Source: Tetragenococcus sp.
Lineage (GTDB): Bacteria > Bacillota > Bacilli > Lactobacillales > Enterococcaceae
Reading direction: 5' to 3'
Length of the DNA stretch: 37,906 bases
NCBI GenBank assembly: GCA_030462125.1
Contig: JAKDZT010000005.1
Location: forward strand, 1-37,906
Shown piece after piece: positions 6,757-33,788 of the stretch. Made by a program: the position numbers and the translations under genes. A model generated the notes under the pieces. It did no database searches and had not been told where the DNA came from. It saw only the letters and a list, made by a program, of their open reading frames with translations. Numbering within the stretch: the stretch's first letter is position 1; each line of letters starts with the position of its first letter.

Positions 6757-6996
6757 ATGGCTCAACAAAGAAGAGGCGGACGCAGACGTCGTAAAGTAGA
6801 TTATCTTGCAGCAAATCACATTGAACATGTTGATTATAAAGATGTTGAATTATTAAAAAGATTTATTTCAGAACGTGGTAAAATCTTACCTCGTCGTGTG
6901 ACCGGAACTGGCGCAAAAAATCAACGTAAGTTGACAATTGCTATCAAACGCGCACGCATCATGGGCTTATTGCCTTTTGTAAATGAAGAAAGCTAA
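6757..6996 (+). CDS. rpsR: 30S ribosomal protein S18
   Basis: S18 is the small-subunit partner of S6 on 16S rRNA. The 79-residue protein has a basic N-terminus ([17 protein letters not shown]) and the conserved block [39 protein letters not shown] precedes the ATG. It is the last gene of its operon, and a terminator follows within about 10 bases. Confidence 0.98.
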
Positions 6997-7037: not shown

Positions 7038-7067
7038 GTCGATTATCTTTTAAATGATCGCCTTGTT

Positions 7068-7098
7068 TTGTAAATCGCATAATCAAATAGTTTATGAT
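7068..7098 (+). promoter_or_regulatory. Probable promoter of gdpP-rplI
   Basis: TATGAT (7093-7098) is followed by AAAAT. The nearest upstream hexamer is TTGTAA (7068-7073), 19 bases away, which is longer than ideal. It is the only reasonable promoter between the rpsR terminator and gdpP. Confidence 0.45.
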
Positions 7099-7201
7099 AA
7101 AATGGGAATTAAACAAATAGGACCCATTAAAAATTTTTTGGAAAAGTTAAGCAATCGTCAAATTTTACTAGTTGAATTTGAAATTATAAGGAGCCTTGGC
7201 T

Positions 7202-8656
7202 ATGACAGTAATCGGCATTATTTCTTTGGATAATTATGACGATATTATTGACAAAATGGATGATAAAAATATTTCTTTACTAAATACCTTAGTCACAACG
7301 ATGATCTCGGATTGGGCGAATGAGTATGGAATTTTTTATAAACGAGTGAATACAGATCGTTACTTTTTTGTTGCTAGTATGAATGATCTAAATCGGATCA
7401 AAGAAGGTAAATTTGATATTTTACAGCGATTAAAAGATTCCAATATAAATAGTGAGTTTATATTGACGATGAGTATGGGGATTGCATATGGTGATAAATC
7501 AATGGAAAAAATTGGTGAAGTTGCCCAAAATAATCTCGATATGGCTTTAGCTCGAGGCGGCGATCAAGTTGTCATAAAGGATGCTGATTCACAAGCAAAG
7601 CCCCAGTTTTTTGGTGGTCAAACAGAAGGAACTATACGTCGAACACGAGTACGTTCGCGTGCAATGAGTTCTTCTTTGAAAAAGATTTTTTCTGAAAATC
7701 AAAAGATTTTTATCATGGGACACCACTATCCAGATATGGATGCTATAGGTAGTGCTTTTGGCGTAGCTGCTCTGGCGCAGTTCAACCAAAAAGAGCCTTA
7801 CGTGATTATCGAACAAGAAGAGGTAACAGAAGACACCCAGCGTTGTTTAGAGGAGATAAATAAACATCCGGAGGAAGCTAAGTTGGTCATCTCTGGCAAA
7901 AGAGCTTTACAACTCATAGATGATAATAGTGTCTTGGTTATGGTCGATTATAACCGACCCGCGCTTTCAATCTCCAAAGAAGTATTTGATGCTTTTGATA
8001 AAATTATGATTATTGATCATCATCGTCGTAGCGAAGAATTTCCTGATCGTCCATTGCTTACTTATATTGAACCTGCCGCTTCTTCTGCTAGTGAGTTGGT
8101 AGCTGAATTAGTCCAATTTCAATCGAATAAAAGGAAAAAAGTCTCGAGATTTATCGCCGGATTATTATTGTCTGGTATTTATGTTGATACGAAAAGTTTC
8201 TTTACTCGGACGACAGCGCAAACGTTTAATGTGGCAAGTTATTTAAAAAATCACGGGGCAGACCTTTCATTAGTTCGCTACTTATTGAGTTCAGATTTGG
8301 ACTCGTATTTACAAATGAGCGAATTAGTGGCGCGCAGTGAGTATGTCACAAAAGATATCGTTGTGGCAGTCGCTTCTGAGAATGAAGTTTACGATAATGT
8401 CACAGCTTCCAAGGCAGCAGATACGTTATTATCAATGAATGATATTGAAGCTGCTTTTGTCATTACTAACCAATTTGAACACGAAACTTCGATTAATGCT
8501 CGTAGTTCTGGAGGCATTAATGTTCAAAGAGTTATGGAAAGACTAGGGGGTGGCGGTCACTTTAGTAACGCCGCAACTCAGATCAAGGGAAAATCGATCG
8601 AAAATGTACGGAAGCTGTTAATTGATGAATTAAAACAATTAGACGATAAGGAGTGA
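7202..8656 (+). CDS. gdpP: GdpP-family c-di-AMP phosphodiesterase, short form lacking membrane and PAS domains
   Basis: GdpP (YybT) hydrolyses the osmotic and cell-wall second messenger c-di-AMP. The family protein is normally about 650-660 residues: two N-terminal membrane helices, a haem-binding PAS domain, a degenerate GGDEF domain, then DHH and DHHA1 catalytic domains. This gene encodes only 484 residues and begins directly in the GGDEF-like domain (MTVIGIISLDNYDD, to about ARGGDQVVI at 117-126). The catalytic part looks intact: GHHYPDMDAIGSA (173-185), VMVDYNRP with D249, IDHH (271-274), and the DHHA1 glycine block GGGGHFSNAATQ near the end. I start at ATG 7202, eight bases after AAGGAG (7188-7193); the TTG at 7196 is too close. 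An in-frame stop at 7187 rules out an upstream extension. It is predicted to be cytosolic, and it is co-transcribed with rplI. Confidence 0.9.
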   Translation: MTVIGIISLDNYDDIIDKMDDKNISLLNTLVTTMISDWANEYGIFYKRVNTDRYFFVASMNDLNRIKEGKFDILQRLKDSNINSEFILTMSMGIAYGDKSMEKIGEVAQNNLDMALARGGDQVVIKDADSQAKPQFFGGQTEGTIRRTRVRSRAMSSSLKKIFSENQKIFIMGHHYPDMDAIGSAFGVAALAQFNQKEPYVIIEQEEVTEDTQRCLEEINKHPEEAKLVISGKRALQLIDDNSVLVMVDYNRPALSISKEVFDAFDKIMIIDHHRRSEEFPDRPLLTYIEPAASSASELVAELVQFQSNKRKKVSRFIAGLLLSGIYVDTKSFFTRTTAQTFNVASYLKNHGADLSLVRYLLSSDLDSYLQMSELVARSEYVTKDIVVAVASENEVYDNVTASKAADTLLSMNDIEAAFVITNQFEHETSINARSSGGINVQRVMERLGGGGHFSNAATQIKGKSIENVRKLLIDELKQLDDKE

Positions 8657-8665
8657 AAGACAAAG

Positions 8666-9118
8666 ATGAAAGTCATTTTTTTACAAGATGTAAAAGGAAA
8701 AGGAAAAAAAGGGGACGTCAAGGACGTACCAAATGGTTACGCACAAAATTATCTATTTAAAAATAAACTAGCAAAAGAAGCAAATCAGGGCAATGTAGCT
8801 GCTATGCGCGGCAAGAAACAAGCGCAAGAAAAAGAAGAAGCTGAAAATTTACAAGAAGCGCAAAGAATAAAAGCTGATTTGGAAGATGAAAAAACGGTCG
8901 TAGAAATCACAGCTAAAGTTGGTGATGATGGCCGACTTTTTGGTTCTGTGCCTTCCAAACAGATTGCGCAAAGTTTAGAAAAACAGTACCAGATCAAAGT
9001 TGATAAAAGAAAAATTGAGTTAAAAGAACCCATCCGCTCCATAGGATATACGGATGTTCCTGTTAAATTACATCCAGAAGTGACAGCCAATATTAAAGTA
9101 CATGTAGTCGAAGAATAA
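8666..9118 (+). CDS. rplI: 50S ribosomal protein L9
   Basis: L9 binds 23S rRNA near the L1 stalk and helps maintain reading frame. The 150 residues match the family. The N-terminal domain is [32 protein letters not shown], a charged connecting helix covers roughly residues 45-75, and the C-terminal domain contains the [13 protein letters not shown] block. It lies 9 bases after gdpP, with AAGGAG overlapping the gdpP stop, so the two are one transcript. gdpP-rplI-dnaB is a conserved Firmicute order. Confidence 0.98.
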
Positions 9119-33162: not shown

Positions 33163-33645
33163 TTACTCTTGTTTATTTTCAGAATCTGTTTTTTTATCAG
33201 TTTCGTCAGCCTCTTCTGTTTGGCTATCTTCTTGGCTTTCAACTGGCAAGCCTTGTTCTTGGCGCATTAGGTCGCGGATTTCTGCTAAGTACTCTTCGGC
33301 AGTTGGTGCTTCTTCCTCGCCCGACAGGTTGGCTTTATTGGCCGCTTTTACAATTAAGAACAAGATAAAGCCGGTAATAATAAAAGTAATAACTGCGCTA
33401 ACGATCTCGCCAAATTGGAATGTTACTCCTGGTGTAGGAGACCAATCTAATACGCCTAAGGAACTTTCAAGATCTCTTGTTCCTGTTATAGCAGCTATAA
33501 ACCAACCAACTAGTGGTGTGATTAAACCTTCAACTACTTGAGTAACGATAGCAGTAAAGGCACTGCCAATAACGACACCTACTGCTAAATCGAGCACGTT
33601 GCCACCTAAAATAAACTCTTTAAATTCCGAAAAAATTCTTTTCAA
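33163..33645 (-). CDS. mscL: Large-conductance mechanosensitive channel
   Basis: MscL is a homopentameric membrane channel that opens under membrane tension and releases solutes on hypo-osmotic shock. I start at TTG 33645 (160 residues, MKRIFSEFKEFILGGNVLDLAVGVVIG); the ATG at 33660 lies before the Shine-Dalgarno GGGAGGTG, which is itself inside that longer frame. TM1 covers about residues 16-45 with the gate-lining LAVGVVIGSAFTAIV, and TM2 about 68-95. The cytoplasmic end is long and acidic (EEEAPTAEEYLAEIRD..., then a run rich in Glu, Asp, Ser and Thr of about 40 residues). Typical homologues are 120-150 residues, so this tail is an extension. TATACT at 33682-33677 on the minus strand is the likely -10. 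Confidence 0.95.
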   Translation of the reverse strand: MKRIFSEFKEFILGGNVLDLAVGVVIGSAFTAIVTQVVEGLITPLVGWFIAAITGTRDLESSLGVLDWSPTPGVTFQFGEIVSAVITFIITGFILFLIVKAANKANLSGEEEAPTAEEYLAEIRDLMRQEQGLPVESQEDSQTEEADETDKKTDSENKQE

Positions 33646-33788
33646 ATTTACACCTCCCATTTTTGCTTATTTTAGTATAACGAAATGAATTATTTTTTTG
33701 AAATAAATTGTTTTTTTTCTTAAGAGCTAAAAGAAAATCGTTCACTATTTAGCAAATCGATTTTTTCTTTCCAAAAGGTTTGGTATGT

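Follow-up and report, generated by a model that had tools for sequence, protein, structure and literature searches.

Does the short gdpP gene of a Tetragenococcus genome record the true loss of the membrane and sensory part of its product, and if so, when was that part lost and what kind of enzyme remains? The gene lies on contig JAKDZT010000005.1 of Tetragenococcus sp. (assembly GCA_030462125.1), of which the whole stretch of 37,906 nucleotides was analysed and is called the window below. GdpP is a phosphodiesterase of cyclic di-AMP (c-di-AMP), and the window protein has 484 residues, compared with frames of about 650–700 codons in full-length relatives. We found that the window gdpP is a real gene that lacks the transmembrane (TM) helices and the PAS domain and keeps the GGDEF–DHH–DHHA1 core. 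The clean domain loss is real and fixed across a clade of several genera. Quite probably, the gene is the gdpP orthologue of an Enterococcaceae clade in whose common ancestor about 500 bp, encoding two TM helices and the PAS domain, were lost, giving a soluble GdpP free of haem and membrane control that is tolerated since PgpH remains.

A short gdpP gene with a complete core

The gene and its parts are placed as follows:

7187..7189, + strand: in-frame stop TAA, which shuts the gdpP frame upstream
7188..7193, + strand: Shine–Dalgarno sequence AAGGAG, overlapping the TAA at 7187–7189 and 8 nt 5' of the ATG
7202..8656, + strand: short gdpP, 484 residues plus stop, ATG at 7202
7220..7594, + strand: degenerate GGDEF domain, residues 7–131, with RGGDQ at 118–122
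7703..8179, + strand: DHH domain, residues 168–326
8372..8635, + strand: DHHA1 domain, residues 391–478

The stop-to-stop frame holds 488 codons. Searched against Pfam, the protein matched GGDEF_GdpP (PF24898, 131.6 bits, cut-off 30), DHH (PF01368, 89.2 bits) and DHHA1 (PF02272, 50.1 bits), all above cut-off, and gave no PAS match; a full-length relative (G010) matched the same three families plus PAS_GdpP. The two N-terminal TM helices are absent as well, the frame being shut by the TAA and the protein opening with the first GGDEF strand. An AlphaFold model (mean predicted local distance difference test score, pLDDT, 84.3; predicted template modelling score 0.70) has a complete first strand at residues 2–9, and its first ten residues average a pLDDT of 92, which places the beginning of the protein at the domain edge. 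Pfam gave no match to the 7TM-HD domain of PgpH in this protein and no family for a 59-codon open reading frame in the leader (7054–7233), and the NrnA model scored 79.2 bits against a cut-off of 350.

An earlier note, made from the sequence alone, had described a GdpP without TM and PAS parts but with an intact catalytic core, its own ribosome-binding site and an in-frame stop upstream, all of which we confirmed. It had placed the gene at 7087–8656 with 484 residues; the end and the length stood, and the start had to be moved, 7087 falling in the leader region ahead of the true ATG.

The short form is shared by five genera

A family-wide search found a GGDEF_GdpP match in 98 of 105 Enterococcaceae genomes. 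The stop-to-stop frame measured 483–508 codons in 23 of them, spread over Tetragenococcus (genus g1 in our numbering, 9/9 genomes), g10 (2/2), g5 (3/3), g13 (4/4) and g6 (5/6). The sixth g6 genome (G084) has the short start alike and a frameshift further on, so that the short gene is found in 24 of 24 genomes of these five genera, 23 with intact frames and one frameshifted. No more than 23 codons separate the opening of the frame from the start of the core in short genes, which leaves no room for a TM–PAS part; the starts agree to about one codon across the short loci, and a purine-rich site was seen by eye 5' of the start in 24 of them. All nine sampled Tetragenococcus genomes, two of which are assembled in 2–3 contigs, carry the short form, and none has the roughly 500 extra coding bases that the earlier note proposed to look for at this junction in relatives. 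A reading of the short GdpP as peculiar to this organism is not supported, since all 24 genomes with this form belong to one clade.

The frameshifted copy in G084 (L057) may be an allele that has lost its function, or may reflect a sequencing error; across the alignment columns used for the tree, the six neighbouring proteins of this genome match those of G083 exactly.

In the other 74 family genomes with a match, gdpP is TM–PAS-sized or a frameshifted full-length gene. At least 650 codons were found in 71 of them; in G022 the gene is split at a contig end, its N-terminus being found by a TM–PAS profile (described below), and in G070 and G101 it is frameshifted with the N-terminus present. Wider surveys gave a similar picture. 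Across 67 genomes of family f4 the main gdpP matches lay in frames of at least 664 codons, except in G335 (575 codons) and in G249, where the match is a fragment near a contig end (with no match in L110). Frames in 151 genomes of the class were at least 645 codons long except in G000 and G017, both of the short clade, and in G355 (527 codons). A survey of 256 genomes of the order gave 230 with a gdpP match, and among the matches listed outside the family, in a listing that reaches down to E 9.8e-38, only G033 (542) and G286 (547) fell below 630 codons. We considered G033, G286, G335, G355, G070 and G101 as clean TM–PAS losses and rejected them all, because TM–PAS sequence is present upstream and the genes are thus frameshifted, with breaks between TM–PAS and core, inside TM–PAS or inside the core. 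These six frameshifted full-length genes (L096, L108, L109, L112, L082 and L111, in the same order of genomes) are either assembly errors or selected loss-of-function alleles.

One loss, older than Tetragenococcus

A tree built from six neighbouring genes (gyrA, rpsF, ssb, rpsR, rplI and dnaB) with 53 rows needed one change between full-length and short gdpP, with a Shimodaira–Hasegawa-like approximate likelihood ratio test (SH-aLRT) value of 97. Adding the five genomes without gdpP described below gave 58 rows and again one change, the short clade having bootstrap and SH-aLRT values of 100 and 97; this tree leaves out 8 of 66 loci, each of which lacked two or more of the six genes; five of the eight are short, and g13 is present as a single row. 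The tree of the GdpP core with the 23 intact short copies also needed one change (SH-aLRT 99), although with a program warning about long branches in the outgroup and in genera represented by one genome. The sister group of the short clade on the six-gene tree is g15, which has full-length gdpP. On these trees, the TM–PAS loss is a single ancient event in the clade's common ancestor, older than Tetragenococcus.

The sister genus shows a further feature. The ratio of TM–PAS to core conservation at its loci L084–L087 is 0.320, the lowest of ten genera (0.370–0.436 in the others), and of ten g15 genomes a single one gives a match to the Pfam PAS_GdpP model. This suggests, from the one genus g15, that constraint on the sensor was relaxed before the loss.

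Seven of the 105 family genomes gave no gdpP match, two of them being 77% and 85% complete. The other five (G009, G098, G011, G095 and G019; loci L113–L117) are of good quality, and gdpP is gone from them; the gap between rpsR and rplI is about 190–260 bp in three and 1.1–1.7 kb in two. Three changes between presence and absence are needed on the tree that includes them; the one in genus g4 falls inside the short clade.

What was removed and what was kept at the locus

The surroundings of the gene bear on what was lost:

6757..6996, + strand: rpsR, upstream neighbour of gdpP
7093..7103, + strand: extended -10 promoter-like element TATGATAAAAT, taken as the ancestral gdpP promoter
7104..7201, + strand: leader from the -10 element to the start codon, the place where the lost stretch of about 500 bp (TM and PAS codons) would have lain
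8666..9118, + strand: rplI, downstream neighbour, 9 bp past the gdpP stop

The gene order at the window locus is rpsF–ssb–rpsR–gdpP–rplI–dnaB, and gdpP stands between rpsR and rplI in the window and in most relatives examined. This order, together with the phylogeny of the core, establishes orthology with canonical GdpP. From the rpsR stop to the start of the gdpP core we measured 205 bp in the window, against at least 598 bp in those full-length loci in which rpsR could be located. Among the 24 short loci, 17 have 155–259 bp between rpsR and the short start, and four have 392, 890, 2023 and 3767 bp; rpsR was not found nearby in the remaining three. A frameshift masking an N-terminus was ruled out in the 17 loci, where the spacer is too small for about 500 bp, and in the other seven by stop-to-stop frames and the TM–PAS profile search. 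The long spacers of L056 (G083), L049 (G008) and L045 (G004), 0.9, 2.0 and 3.8 kb compared with the usual 0.2 kb or so, still have the promoter element within about 110 nt of the gdpP start, so the extra DNA lies upstream of the element.

The -10 element follows the extended consensus TGTGnTAAAAT. At least nine of its ten fixed bases are present in 21 of 23 short loci, one of the 24 being left out for want of upstream sequence, and in 30 of 34 full-length loci, three of the 37 having been excluded for frameshifts. First-order Markov resamplings reached that level of match in 4.3% (short) and 1.8% (full-length) of cases. The element lies about 500–650 nt from the GGDEF start in most full-length genes versus 55–112 nt in short genes. 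Measured to start codons picked by script, the distance is 22–35 nt in 20 of 34 full-length loci, 93–135 nt in four g15 loci and 44–101 nt in short loci, with 98 nt in the window. Since the element is close to the short start and far from GGDEF in full-length genes, the promoter appears to have been kept and about 500 bp before GGDEF lost. The leader is 95–101 nt long in eight of nine Tetragenococcus genomes, versus 44–88 nt in the other short genomes.

The earlier note had asked whether a split TM–PAS gene lies nearby or a separate one in the rest of the genome. By itself, the Pfam PAS_GdpP model is not decisive here: of the genomes with full-length gdpP, it misses 9 of 10 in g15 and 4 of the 64 others. 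Because it misses g15, we built a profile from 21 TM–PAS regions, four of them from that genus, and took matches up to an expectation value (E) of 1. All ten full-length controls, three of which had also supplied sequence for the profile, matched at E 6.1e-39 or better, while the 24 short genomes gave nothing better than E 0.017. Neither the profile nor PAS_GdpP found a TM–PAS match in the window genome. A detached TM–PAS gene was thus ruled out by a search with positive controls, and the short genomes appear to hold no credible candidate for a detached sensor of this type.

The retained core is conserved and constrained

Alignment of 18 cores (11 short, 7 full-length) showed H174, D178, D180, D249, D272–H273–H274, D329 and GGGH 450–453 to be invariant; these make up the catalytic and metal-binding motifs. 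Within short genera, the conservation of GGDEF is on a par with that of DHH and DHHA1. The median ratio of nonsynonymous to synonymous substitution rates (dN/dS) within Tetragenococcus was 0.064 for GGDEF (33 of 36 pairs), 0.060 for DHH (33 of 36) and 0.058 for DHHA1 (28 of 36), and did not exceed 0.064 in any domain of the short genera calculated (g1, g6 and g13). Purifying selection thus still acts on all three retained domains. The best structural matches of the model were the GdpP catalytic-domain entries 5xsp (E 1e-36) and 5xsi, from S. aureus; by sequence, the best structure entries were 9n0l and 5xsi.

The window genome also contains a DAC cyclase, PgpH as a separate gene (G000:C284), and two other, distant DHH-type genes (G000 C26 and C382; 27% and 30% identity to the core). 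PgpH, the other membrane-bound c-di-AMP phosphodiesterase, was detected in 104 of the 105 family genomes, including every one of the 98 that are of good quality.

Comparison with known enzymes and predicted activity

With GdpP/YybT of B. subtilis, S. aureus and E. faecalis the window protein shares the degenerate GGDEF, DHH and DHHA1 domains and the catalytic motifs, and its gene resembles those of full-length relatives in lying between rpsR and rplI and in its promoter element; the protein differs in having neither TM helices nor PAS and is predicted to be soluble. The soluble DHH–DHHA1 phosphodiesterases DhhP, NrnA and Pde2 are in this respect like the window protein, but they lack GGDEF, whereas it has GGDEF_GdpP. 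Other comparisons draw on published papers. GdpP of Mycoplasma bovis likewise has a GGDEF-like motif and DHH–DHHA1 without PAS, but it has an N-terminal TM region (residues up to 119 were removed for a soluble form) and atypical DHH domains (PMC10720645); the window protein lacks the TM region too, and its motifs are typical. Laboratory-truncated forms (S. mutans GdpP109-657 and S. aureus GdpP84-655) are N-terminally shortened, without TM, and active (PMC6170606, PMC3164647). They were made for purification and keep all or part of PAS, whereas the window protein is natural and begins at GGDEF. A TM- and PAS-less GdpP of this clade was not found described in open-licence PubMed Central papers, and a search of the open-licence literature for structure papers found nothing; measured against the papers searched, the short GdpP is a known enzyme in a new domain architecture.

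Published biochemistry is consistent with activity of such a form. GdpP without TM helices is active, the helices being dispensable (PMC6170606, PMC3164647). Haem bound to the PAS domain of B. subtilis GdpP suppresses activity in vitro (PMC3164647), and the DHH–DHHA1 part of the E. faecalis enzyme alone is about 13-fold more active than the full-length protein (PMC10243994). Point mutations in GGDEF lower GdpP activity (PMC3164647), a report that the retention of GGDEF fits. The short enzyme is therefore most likely active and soluble, a phosphodiesterase that haem does not control.

Several observations weigh against this reading. Removal of PAS left the activity of S. pneumoniae GdpP unchanged (Bai 2013 as cited in PMC10243994 and PMC6170606), so the loss need not bring relief from inhibition. 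Ten core sites that are at least 95% uniform in 32 full-length proteins carry another residue in more than half of the 23 short ones; they include S291 and R424, and although none falls in the invariant catalytic motifs, changed activity is possible. The dN/dS values of Tetragenococcus lie above those of the full-length genera calculated (0.008–0.056, from few pairs) in all three domains alike, and constraint may be slightly weaker there, equally in the three. Weak TM–PAS profile matches occurred in 10 of the 24 short genomes (E 0.017–0.7), none covering more than about 80 of 167 positions.

Alternative explanations

The alternative that survives best, though we regard it as unlikely, is gene decay, in which the N-terminal loss is a step toward complete loss and the core no longer matters. 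The gdpP-less genus nested in the clade, the three changes between presence and absence, the frameshifted copy in G084, the diverged TM–PAS region of g15 and the slightly raised dN/dS in Tetragenococcus would all fit. Decay is at odds, however, with intact frames in 23 of 24 short genes, with the invariance of the catalytic residues in the 11 short sequences aligned, and with dN/dS as low as reported above over genus-level divergence, which argues for a functional protein.

Repurposing, with the short GdpP now acting mainly on another substrate such as pApA or short RNA, is improbable. NanoRNases do exist among DHH–DHHA1 proteins, and the PAS-less Mycoplasma bovis GdpP has nanoRNase and single-stranded DNase activity (PMC10720645). 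The nearest solved structures are nevertheless GdpP catalytic domains, far ahead of NrnA, and the window genome has the two other DHH-type genes.

Tetragenococcus is salt-loving, and the earlier note offered an osmotic adaptation, with TM and PAS lost while the genus became halophilic, pointing to proBA and mscL in the window. c-di-AMP does control potassium and osmolyte uptake (PMC10243994), and mscL is indeed present (33163–33660, - strand; Pfam MscL 118.5 bits), about 24 kb from gdpP, but its proximity says nothing on cause. The loss is common to four other genera and maps to the common ancestor, and one change suffices, so Tetragenococcus inherited it. A loss at the base of the clade is not explained by the way of life of one genus, and a halophile-specific cause is unlikely, slightly more so than repurposing.

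Least of all can the short gene be put down to an assembly or sequencing deletion in a truly full-length gene, a negligible prospect even for a fragmented genome of moderate quality (398 contigs, 88% complete), because the same form recurs throughout the genus, 2- and 3-contig assemblies included, and in four more genera, with leader sequences and lengths that differ between species and so are not copies of one faulty record.

Implications for c-di-AMP control in the clade

The preferred explanation, an ancestral loss of the TM–PAS stretch with the core retained, starts from what the sequence shows: rpsR and rplI still flank the gene, the promoter-like element and the complete GGDEF–DHH–DHHA1 core are in place, and a start codon served by its own ribosome site stands at the first GGDEF strand. 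The product would be a soluble enzyme of the cytosol that hydrolyses c-di-AMP to 5'-pApA and escapes control by haem/PAS and by the membrane; its regulation, if any, would come through GGDEF, substrate level or expression, and membrane-linked c-di-AMP breakdown would be left to PgpH. We propose that, because PgpH remains, the loss of the sensor, and in some relatives of the whole gdpP gene, has been tolerated. The altered c-di-AMP control that the earlier note suggested is plausible in the light of publications on truncated GdpP, with an effect expected to be softened since PgpH is still present. More tentatively, and as a possibility we would not favour, c-di-AMP breakdown of the GdpP type may have shifted, throughout the clade, from a membrane location to a cytosolic one, with GGDEF as the sole regulatory input and PgpH as the sole membrane-sensing phosphodiesterase.

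A review lists the roles of the PAS and GGDEF parts of GdpP as open and, as of 2023, reports no experimental studies of PgpH in lactic acid bacteria (PMC10243994). The clade amounts to a natural experiment on these parts, its species having been without TM and PAS since their common ancestor, beside a sister genus that keeps them and a nested genus without the gene. In it, the function of the GGDEF–DHH core stands apart from the sensing of haem and of the membrane, and attention is drawn to PgpH.
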